From: Pseudaquabacterium terrae | GTDB lineage: Bacteria; Pseudomonadota; Gammaproteobacteria; Burkholderiales; Burkholderiaceae_C | Length of the DNA stretch: 64,000 nucleotides | Assembly (NCBI RefSeq): GCF_013266755.1 | Contig: NZ_JABRWJ010000005.1 | Coordinates: 496,001 to 560,000, forward strand | Direction: 5' to 3' | Part shown: positions 51,131 to 53,639 of the stretch, one piece after another | Position numbering within the stretch: position 1 is the stretch's first letter | How the letters are laid out: the number at the start of each line of letters is the position of its first letter | Translations under genes and position numbers: made by a program | Notes under the pieces: model-generated | What the model was told of the DNA's origin: nothing | Databases searched by the model: none | Seen by the model: only the letters and a program-made list of their open reading frames with translations

Positions 51131-51308
51131 AGCGTTCGCTAGGGGTGTTGGCGCCCGACCCGGCGCCGACTGAGACAGTCCCTTTGAACCTGATTGAGGC
51201 GAGCCCCTTGGGCGAGCCACAGTCCCCAATTGGGGATTGAGGCGAGCCCTTCGGGGCGAGCCACAGTCCCCATTTGGGGACCGAGGTAATCCTCGCGCAG
51301 GGAAGCAG
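51131..51308 (+). ncRNA. thiamine pyrophosphate (TPP) riboswitch with internal tandem-repeat insertion
   Basis: The conserved THI-box parts are in order: AGGGGTG (51141-51147), P3 stem GGCGCC/GGCGCC (51150-51155, 51162-51167), CTGAGA (51170-51175), CCCTTTGAACCTGAT (51180-51194), then GAGGTAATCCTCG (51283-51295) and CGCAGGGAAGC (51296-51306). Between CCTGAT and GAGGTAAT, where only a base or two is normal, lie about 88 extra bases made of 44-base repeats. GGGAAG (51300-51305) can also pair with CTTCCC (51329-51334), a candidate switching hairpin. The next gene is a TonB-dependent receptor, the kind of target known for TPP control. Confidence 0.88.
51175..51286 (+). repeat. 44-base tandem repeats inside the TPP riboswitch
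   Basis: Copies begin at 51175, 51219 and 51263, each with ACAGTCCC. Copy 1 holds the riboswitch sequence TTTGAACCTGATTGAGG at this place; copies 2 and 3 hold CCCCAATTGGGG / CCCCATTTGGGG hairpins. Between copies runs GGCGAGCCCCTTGGGCGAGCC or its near match. The third copy is partial and leads into the final riboswitch segment. Confidence 0.8.
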
Positions 51309-51397
51309 CTCTCGAACCGGCACGCCTTCTTCCCGTCTCCGGACGTGCCCGTCTTCAGTGTTTGCCCACCTGCCATCGACGCATCGAAGGTTTCCCG

Positions 51398-53503
51398 ATG
51401 GCATTCCGATCTCATTGCGTGTTAGGCACGCTCACGCTCGCCGCGCTGCAGGCGCTGGCGCAGGACACGCCGCAGACCGTCACGGTCACCGGACGCGGCA
51501 CCACCACCGCGACGGTCGCCGGCTTCGGCAACGTGCCGCTCGGCAAGCTGCCGATGTCGGCGATCTCGCTCGGCAACGGCCAGCTGGAGGATGCTGCCGT
51601 CTCGACGCTGGCCGACATCACGCGGCTCGACGCCAGCCTGAGCGACGCCTACAACTCGCCCGGCTACTGGAGCAGCCTGACGATCCGCGGCTTCGTGCTC
51701 GACAACCGCTACAACTACCGACGCGACGGGCTGCCGATCAATGCCGAGACGGCGATCGGCCTGGCCAACAAGCAATCGATCGAAGTGCTCAAGGGCACCT
51801 CCGGCCTGCAGGCCGGCACCAGCGCGCCCGGGGGACTCGTGAACTTCGTGGTCAAGCGCCCGACCGCCGGGCTGCGCGCCGCGGCGATCGGCTGGGCGCA
51901 GGACGGCAGCGTCGGCGCATCGGTCGACCTGTCCGAGCGCAGCGGCGCCAGCGGCGCCTTCGGCTGGCGCATCAACGCCGCGGCGGAGAAGCTCGACCCG
52001 CAGCTGCGCGATGCCGAAGGCCGCCGCCACCTGCTGGCGCTGGCCGCCGACGCGCGCCTGTCCCCCGGCAGCCAGCTCGAAGGCGAGCTCGAATGGAGCC
52101 GCCAGCGCCAGCCCAGCATGCCGGGCTTCAGCCTGCTCGGCGGCCGCCTGCCCGATGCGCAGGCGATCGACCCGCGCATCAACTTGAACAACCAGCCTTG
52201 GAGCCTGCCGGTGGTGCTGGAAGGCCGCACCGCCTCACTGCGCTGGACCCACGAGCTGCGCCCCGACTGGCGCATCAGCGCGCATGCGATGGCCCAGCGC
52301 CTGAAGAGCGACGACCGCGTCGCCTTTCCGTTCGGCTGCAGCGCCGAGAACAACTACGACCGCTACTGCAGCGACGGCAGCTTCGACCTCTACGACTTTC
52401 GCAGCGAAGGCGAGCGCCGCGACACCGATGCGCTGGACCTCGCGCTCAGCGGCCGCGCGATGCTGGGCGGCATGGACCACCGCTTCACGATCGGCCTGCT
52501 GGCCAGCCGCTTCGAGGCCCGCTTCAACCGCCAGGCCTACAACTGGGTCGGCGTCGGCCAGATCGACGGCAGCGTGATCACGCCGGCCGACCCGACGCTG
52601 ACCGACGAGAACACGAACCGCGACGAACGCAGCACCGAGCTGCGCCTGCAGGACCAGATCACGCTGGGCCAGGACACCACGCTGTGGGCCGGCCTGCGCA
52701 GTTCGCGCATCGCGCGCGCCAGCGTACGCACCGACGGCTCGCGCGGCACCGACTACCACCAGCAGCTGACCACGCCGTGGCTCGCGCTGAGCCACCAGCT
52801 CAGCCCGGCCGCGATGGTCTACGCCAGCTGGGGCCAGGGGGTGGAATCCGAGGTCGTGCCGAACCGTTCGTTCTACGCCAACGCGGGCCAGCCGCTGGCG
52901 GCCCTGAAGAGCCGCCAGATCGAAGCCGGGATCAAGCGCCGCAGCACCGCGGTCGACGCCGGCATCACGCTGTTCGACATCCGCCGCCCGATGTGGGCCG
53001 ACTTCTGCGACACCGACGGCCAGTGCGTCCGGCTCGCCGATGGCGCGCAGCGGCACCGCGGCCTGGAGGCCGACGCCGAGGCGCGCCTGGGCGCGTGGAA
53101 CCTGCGCGGCAGCGTGATGTGGCTGAAGGCCCGTCGCGAAGGCTCCATCGACGCAAACGTCGAAAACAAGCGGCCCGCGAACGTGCCCGCTTTCGCGCTG
53201 AAGGCCCAGGCCGCCTACAACGTGCCCGCCCTGCCCGGCCTGGCGCTGCTGGGCTTCGTCACCCACGAGGGCGACCGCGCCGTGCTGCCCGACAACAGCA
53301 TCATCGCCGGGGGCTGGACCCGCATCGACCTGGGCCTGCGCTACGCGATGAAGCTCGACGGCCACGCACTGACCTGGCGCGCCGGCGTCGACAACGTGGC
53401 CGACCGCCGGGCGTGGAAGGAGACGCCCTACCAGTTCAGCCACGTCTACCTGTATCCGCTGGCGCCGCGGCGGGCGCATGCCTCGCTGAACGTGCAGTTC
53501 TGA
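51398..53503 (+). CDS. TonB-dependent outer-membrane receptor, probable thiamine or precursor uptake
   Basis: A 701-residue TonB-dependent receptor. An N-terminal signal ([22 protein letters not shown]) is followed by a TonB-box-like QTVTVTG, the plug domain with [22 protein letters not shown] and [24 protein letters not shown], and a beta-barrel ending in HASLNVQF with the terminal aromatic. The wording is of the FhuA/siderophore-receptor type. Because it is the only gene behind a TPP riboswitch, the likely substrate is thiamine or a precursor rather than iron. ATG 51398 was chosen for the signal peptide; GAAGG lies about eight bases before. Confidence 0.88.
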
Positions 53504-53563: not shown

Positions 53564-53639
53564 TCCCCGATAGCTCAGTTGGTAGAGCGCCGGACTGTTA
53601 ATCCGTAGGTCCCTGGTTCGAGCCCAGGTCGGGGAGCCA
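53564..53639 (+). tRNA. tRNA-Asn (anticodon GTT)
   Basis: A 76-base tRNA with encoded CCA. Acceptor TCCCCGA pairs with TCGGGGA; the discriminator is G; the anticodon loop is CTGTTAA with GTT at 53597-53599; the T-arm contains GGTTCGAGCCC. It stands at the border between core genes and a lower-G+C accessory region, a common island insertion point. Confidence 0.97.

Follow-up and report, generated by a model that had tools for sequence, protein, structure and literature searches.

TPP riboswitches (RF00059, THI element) vary in size mostly in P3, according to the accessible text of PMC6414600, PMC5882874, and PMC4260697, which backs what a sequence-only reading of this DNA had stated. The available portions of PMC5882874 and PMC8786325 single out P4 and P5 as the stems with the strongest conservation in the aptamer. 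The riboswitch described here lies in a 64,000-nt stretch of Pseudaquabacterium terrae DNA (the window). It resembles RF00059 in its P2-P5 core with CTGAGA, GAACCTG, L5 TAAT, and GCGCAGGGA and in its position upstream of probably thiamine-related genes but differs in its additional helices between P4 and P5 and in its subthreshold scores. With the optional P3a stem-loop of bacterial TPP riboswitches, as presented in the accessible part of PMC2258182, it shares an optional additional helix at an aptamer junction; P3a, however, is located at the P2-P3 junction, while the module considered here is located between P4 and P5, mostly contributes a pair of helices, and occurs in double copy in the window. 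As in the TPP riboswitch k-junction (PMC10573300, available text), a helical junction would set the course of the sensor arms, but the k-junction is a native three-way junction, while the module would add a junction further up the P4-P5 arm. The kind of element is known, but no description of an insert at this place, between the 5′ strand of P4 and P5, was found in the accessible text of the open-license PMC literature searched. The locus is a real, structured, and recurrent TPP riboswitch variant that is doubled in the window genome. The reading that we consider probable is that extra helices (mostly two, PA and PB) between P4 and P5 arose by duplication in a riboswitch that acts on translation and probably still binds TPP.

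The anatomy of the aptamer is seen directly in positions 51131–51308, which contain GGGGTG (P2), CTGAGA, GAACCTG, GAGGTAATCCTC, and GCGCAGGGAAGC. The order is GGGGTG, P3 hairpin, CTGAGA, P2 3′ strand, and GAACCTG, and the 3′ half that follows the insert consists of P5 (GAGG/TAAT/CCTC), GCG, CAGG (the P4 3′ strand), and GGAAGC. Thus, the elements of the RF00059 core (P2, P3, CTGAGA, GAACCTG, P4, and P5 with L5) are all found as sequence segments, as had been claimed from the sequence alone; in predicted folding, P5 forms, while P2 forms only if imposed. The covariance-model search that had been proposed matched positions 51131–51231 at 24.2 bits (E 0.07) compared to a gathering score of 54.3. 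None of the 20 module-bearing loci from the family reached this cutoff, and three further insert-bearing loci (L069, L071, and L111) scored 32.7 to 34.3 bits, so that all 24 insert-bearing riboswitches, the window included, are below it. The low scores are probably due to the insert, given that three plain orthologs (L065, L066, and L070) score 54.3 to 60.9 bits. Because the window is below the threshold, its assignment to TPP riboswitches rests on the core segments and the orthologs. A second TPP riboswitch in the same genome (C4, 63.1 bits) has no such insert. Coordinates are collected in Table 1.

Table 1. Features of the riboswitch locus (window positions).
Feature	Position	Strand	Basis or remark
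TPP riboswitch aptamer, interrupted by insert	51131..51308	+	RF00059 24.2 bits on 51131-51231; core segments present
P3 hairpin GTTGGCGCC/GGCGCCGAC	51147..51170	+	fold with P2, P4, and P5 imposed
ACAGTCCC of aptamer (J3-2 and P2 3′ strand)	51175..51182	+	in register with copies at 51219 and 51263; spacing 44, 44
P4 5′ strand CCTG	51189..51192	+	sequence; P4 columns of alignment fold
Insert, P4 5′ strand to P5	51193..51282	+	90 bases here vs 3 in plain relatives
Repeat unit 1, 43 bases	51192..51234	+	tandem-repeat search; spacing of copies
Repeat unit 2, 44 bases	51235..51278	+	tandem-repeat search; spacing of copies
Hairpin PA1 with GA/GA internal loop	51195..51221	+	MFE fold
Nested rod: PB1 and PB2 arms paired mutually, PA2 (51241-51262) at tip	51222..51281	+	MFE fold
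P5/L5 GAGG TAAT CCTC	51283..51294	+	pairing probability 0.82
J5-4 GCG and P4 3′ strand CAGG	51295..51301	+	sequence; alignment
CCTGC, copy of P4 5′ strand, predicted anti-sequestor	51369..51373	+	pairs P4 3′ strand, probability 0.97, full leader
Start-codon hairpin TGCCATCG...CGATGGCA	51371..51403	+	8-bp perfect, over ATG; also in nearest relative
TonB-dependent receptor, 701 aa, open	51398..53503	+	PF00593, PF07715; TIGR01783
tRNA-Asn	53564-53639		directly after receptor gene

The insert separates CCTG from GAGG by 90 bases, a net gain of 87 on the 5′ strand between P4 and P5, and is located where the sequence-only reading had put it, between J2-4/P4 and P5. That reading had also counted two extra 44-base units; two tandem units are indeed present, but their lengths are 43 and 44. 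The array (51192–51280; period 44, 2.0 copies, 91% matches) has the top score, 150, among 39 tandem-repeat rows in the window, the next being 87. By eye, the units differ mainly in the hairpin loops, and the last half-copy of the array has GACC in place of GATT. The insert folds better than its dinucleotide shuffles (z −7.64, 0 of 300), and the segment 51131–51312 folds at −99.9 kcal/mol (z −5.99, 0 of 200). A tandem repeat within a draft of 56 contigs could be suspected of being an assembly or sequencing error. We regard this as a negligible concern, because the two units differ at several positions, other genomes carry inserts at the same point, and a stretch of 22 bases (AGTCCCCAATTGGGGATTGAGG) that starts in unit 1 and continues into the beginning of unit 2 is found identically in the insert of L111, a metagenome-assembled genome (MAG) titled Rhodoferax and belonging to another genus.

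Folding predictions place the doubled copy in two arms. As PA1 followed by a long rod, the insert reaches an MFE of −61.4, compared to −52.8 for the best set of four separate hairpins (cut points 40 to 48 were tried). In the rod, the 5′ arm of PB1 pairs with the 3′ arm of PB2 and the 3′ arm of PB1 with the 5′ arm of PB2, leaving PA2 at the tip. Such crosswise pairing of the units is possible because hairpin B is nearly self-complementary, and since the nested fold is better than four hairpins, duplication is predicted to leave two arms. In the ligand-free aptamer of the window, P4 has a probability of 0.59 and P2 of 0.05, and the unconstrained minimum lacks P2. A symmetrical internal loop of the GA/GA type, with tandem G-A pairs, is common to the PA hairpins of L164, L165, and the window (51195–51221 and 51241–51262) and may be a specific motif of structure.

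As one of two options, it had been suggested from the sequence that the final CCTC could find its partner in the GAGG of unit 1, which would turn the whole insert into a giant P5/L5 arm. The GAGG of each unit is indeed complementary to CCTC. Yet the pairing probability of either is 0.0, compared to 0.82 for the ordinary P5, and with P2 and P4 imposed the ordinary P5 gives −94.1 and the unit-1 version −89.3; moreover, UAAU would be left unclosed. We therefore give the giant arm almost no credence. The unit-2 pairing was rejected on its energy (−75.1 versus −94.1) and its pairing probability.

Fifteen of 20 other genomes of the genus contain a receptor match with an E value of 1e-50 or lower; the aptamer upstream is plain, GAACCTGAYYGAGGTAATCCTC, in all 15. 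The nearest relative is G003, with a receptor 82% identical and a match whose location is that found in Aquabacterium humicola RJY3. A second collection comprised the best 80 of 211 receptor loci, from which 67 riboswitches were parsed: 64 are plain, and 3 carry an insert at the same point (L069, L071, and L111). As for the 13 unparsed loci, L089 is plain by eye, L139 has no upstream DNA, and in the other 11 no TPP core was seen within 900 bases upstream. A long-gap pattern, GAACCTG...GGTAAT, matched in 23 of 399 family genomes, while the reversed-pattern control matched in none; after 3 of the 23 matches were judged false, same-point inserts remain in 20 genomes from 13 genera. These inserts in other genera, seen directly, had been overlooked in the first reading, which had considered that relatives might all share the insert with compensatory pairing: the 15 congeners lack it, but the inserts of distant relatives keep hairpins while differing in sequence. 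A search for gaps as long as that in the window matched 1 of 399 family genomes, namely the window itself, and across these genomes and the 67 parsed riboswitches the window has the only doubled module. Since the pattern requires GAACCTG and GGTAATNCYNGCGNA, other forms of insert would be missed; with it, no true insert was seen outside the family among 200 genomes of the order.

Several candidates were rejected. L145 was dropped, there being no aptamer around the match. L157 and L158, first read as aptamers with an internal core copy, are ordinary riboswitches whose first GAACCTG is in the P3 loop. The sole order-level match (L168, 1 of 200 genomes) looks like the same false kind, judged from its matched letters, and the reversed-pattern control at this level also produced one match, in G525.

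Within genera, the distribution is uneven. Ten of the 13 genera with hits are represented by more than one genome, with counts of 3/3 in g99 and 3/4 in g163, but 1/5 in g45, 1/5 in g124, 2/5 in g104, 2/5 in g95, 1/3 in g86, 1/4 in g143, 2/3 in g52, and 1/2 in g101. At least one member has no match in 9 of the 10, which can mean that the insert or the gene is absent or that the exact pattern is. A tree of 96 receptors, built by a quick method, requires 8 changes of the insert label, at least 7 of them forced by starred branches, compared to 17.6 in shuffles; the sister of the window has no insert. Rows from the family sample entered this tree only if insert-bearing, so insert-rich branches partly reflect sampling, and gain is indistinguishable from loss.

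By eye, CCTG is followed by A in those plain receptor aptamers that were inspected and by T in 10 of the 24 insert-bearing ones (L069, L071, L111, L152 to L154, L161, L162, L166, and L167); GAT of the P4-P5 loop therefore seems released from constraint. In L152 (1494–1596, minus strand, genome G316), the PB hairpin appears by eye to hold a degenerate extra P5/L5 copy (TTGAGGTATTCCTC) before the real P5, which by this inspection is a second case of further expansion. The records of L092 and L097, titled Bordetella parapertussis and Chloroflexota (both MAGs), contain receptors that group with the Burkholderiales relatives of the window, and these record names are probably wrong.

In the predicted folds of the 24 inserts (20 family loci, L069, L071, L111, and the window), two top-level hairpins are present in 20, and one in 4 (L147, L159, L160, and L166); the two hairpins abut between CCTG and P5 in the window and in 19 of the 23 other inserts, and P4, PA, PB, and P5 are predicted to meet in a four-way junction. 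Stable hairpins are a direct observation here, with z values below −2.6 against dinucleotide shuffles in 21 of 24 inserts, the exceptions being L159, L160, and L166 with weak folds. In 17 inserts, picked as single two-hairpin modules after the folds had been inspected (the four one-hairpin inserts, L152, L167, and the window being omitted), 0 to 4 bases precede PA, 0 to 1 separate PA from PB, and 0 to 1 precede P5. When arms were swapped between loci, PA paired in 48% of cells and PB in 58%, own pairs being complete by construction.

Covariation was assessed on a MAFFT alignment of 17 rows (unit 2 of the window and 16 loci, L069 also being omitted). Three of five measures went beyond all 500 shuffles: P4/PB/P5 cells paired (96.6% versus 90.0), double-change cells (17 versus 5.4), and the covariation score (0.258 versus 0.130, with 0.003 to 0.080 for slid versions), although related rows can exceed shuffles in such a comparison. 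The number of pairs with a double change (4 versus a shuffled mean of 2.9) was reached by 118 of the 500 shuffles, and the number of further pair types (11 versus 9.3) by 71. RNAalifold recovered P4, PB, and P5 from the alignment but not PA, which is misaligned; because P4 and P5 hardly vary, the covariation speaks for PB only, in 17 of the 24 inserts. A comparison by eye of two loci from the same genus, L164 and L165, reveals U-A to C-G and C-G to A-U exchanges in PA and an A-U to G-C exchange in PB.

The sequence-only reading had proposed that the unit contains aptamer sequence and arose by duplication of the riboswitch, and this origin is a fair one: ACAGTCCC occurs at 51175 in the aptamer and at 51219 and 51263 in the units, in 44-base steps, and is then followed by GATTGAGG or GACCGAGG. 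Since these copies are in register, internal duplication is favored. Aptamer-like AGTC is present in 11 of the 24 inserts and absent from 13; it is located 15 to 19 bases before the P5 strand in 10 of the 11 (18 in the aptamer) and 48 bases before it in L152. When the 11 AGTC-containing inserts were compared with their own aptamers, the longest common word had shuffle P values (single-base shuffles) of 0.0055 to 0.031 in 7 and 0.11 to 0.31 in 4. For some inserts, the AGTC data fit an origin of the hairpins from a P3-to-P5 segment copied in tandem. We infer that a duplicated P3-to-P5 piece of the aptamer probably gave rise to the module and that, in the window genome, the module would have been duplicated once more, the copies nesting as PA1 and a long rod so that two arms are kept. 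The palindromic hairpins and the GATTGAGG/GACCGAGG ends could instead suggest that the aptamer was hit by a small mobile repeat of the REP or MITE kind, but such repeats are present in several copies and this one occupies a single place in its 8.0-Mbp genome. Other matches in the genus and family are stretches of 16 to 40 bases, one being the inverted arm of the window itself, and none of nine inspected by eye contains the unit; the exact hairpin pattern is unmatched in phages and in a contig collection that may omit the own genome, and plasmids match over 25 bases only, in two plasmids. A mobile origin is therefore very improbable.

At the 20 family loci, the downstream gene encodes a receptor in 15 cases, a CytX-like protein in 3, and a thiamine-binding protein (PF01910) in 1, the remaining locus being L147. 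For the three CytX-like hydroxymethylpyrimidine permeases, TIGR02358 is the best match (E 1e-66 or better), below its curated cutoff. The window receptor carries the NCBIfam name siderophore receptor (TIGR01783, above cutoff). Despite this name, a thiamine-related substrate seems more likely for the product of 51398–53503, judging from its gene context: a plain TPP aptamer precedes the receptor in all 15 congeners with a strong match. A tRNA gene is also located 3′ of the receptor in L065, L066, L069, L071, and L111.

Ligand contacts can be compared with the position of the insert. According to the accessible part of PMC6414600, C67 and G68 contact the phosphate directly, and two adenines of L5 dock on P3; by our reading of its numbering, C67 and G68 belong to the 3′ strand in the P4-P5 loop. 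GCG/CAGG and L5 are untouched by the insert, which is on the 5′ strand; therefore, the window RNA likely still binds TPP.

The sequence of the expression platform is conserved. In 19 of 24 insert-bearing leaders and in 39 of 60 plain ones (60 parsed of 77; counts given with no chance control), an ATG is covered by a perfect hairpin of 6 bp or more, and CCTGCCATC is present in 19 of 24 and 32 of 60, respectively. We infer a translational mode of control. With TPP, P4 would hold, the hairpin would cover the start codon, and translation would stop. Without TPP, the P4 3′ strand would pair with the second CCUGC just 5′ of the start hairpin, which would thereby open. The predicted effect of the module in the window genome is a weaker P4, and shutoff would then require more TPP.

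Folding predictions bear on the last step. In ligand-free leaders, the median P4 probability is 0.02 in 19 insert-bearing and 0.91 in 32 plain leaders (Mann-Whitney p 1.2e-7), while the anti-sequestor medians are 0.06 and 0.005. A group-wide shift to the “on” state was expected but not found, the start-hairpin medians being 0.97 (19 insert-bearing) and 0.955 (32 plain). The window leader without ligand yields P4 0.00, anti-sequestor 0.97, and start hairpin 0.03; the corresponding values for the leader of the nearest relative are 1.0, 0.0, and 0.90. For aptamers alone (24 insert-bearing, 60 plain), the medians are 0.63 versus 0.99 for P4 and 0.05 versus 0.20 for P2. Since the start-hairpin median is no lower with an insert and the anti-sequestor median is only slightly raised, the predicted “on” shift applies to the window and a few others and not to the group. 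All P4 probabilities depend on multiloop energies and on folding without ligand or tertiary contacts, and any insert at this point would lower P4 in such a model; tuning of the switch by the module is therefore a prediction, mainly for the window, and as the weakest step of the proposed mechanism it is a guess.

What the module does can be read in several ways. A serious rival to the TPP-binding, translational variant, with a probability that we would place a little short of even, is that self-folding hairpins are tolerated as passive decoration at a permissive point of the aptamer, without function and free to change in copy number. The patchy distribution, in the receptor tree as well as within genera, is consistent with this, as are the diverging arm sequences, a start-codon hairpin that is no weaker in the insert group, and the tolerance of riboswitches for variable stem-loop insertions mentioned in the accessible text of PMC2258182. 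On the other hand, the module is present in all g99 and most g163 genomes, genera chosen for their hits, and a free insertion point is unexpected at P4 and P5, given the conservation that the available portions of PMC5882874 and PMC8786325 ascribe to these two stems above all others. At the other extreme, the module may be an active tunable joint, derived from the duplicated P3-to-P5 segment, that sets how readily P4 is lost to the CCUGC anti-sequestor; copy number would then adjust the TPP threshold, the window would represent a two-copy step, and an AGUCC-type module may act as a decoy of the P2 strand. We regard this more ambitious proposal as rather unlikely.

Another possibility is that the insert has broken the riboswitch, abolishing TPP sensing so that the receptor is made constantly. 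The ligand-free predictions for the window (the lost P4 and opened start hairpin of its leader and the low P2 probability of its aptamer) point in this direction, but neither ligand nor tertiary contacts entered the computation, the platform and every core segment are in place, and module-bearing riboswitches precede three kinds of probably thiamine-related gene. Loss of function is thus distinctly unlikely, and we retain the reading of a TPP riboswitch variant with extra helices between P4 and P5.

The recurrent structured insertions between P4 and P5 represent a natural architecture of a well-known riboswitch class that is missed by the standard model. They also provide a testable case of a riboswitch gaining helices by duplicating its own parts and of whether such helices tune the response. 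With these insertions recognized, ~1 in 20 of the family genomes sampled would gain a thiamine riboswitch annotation.
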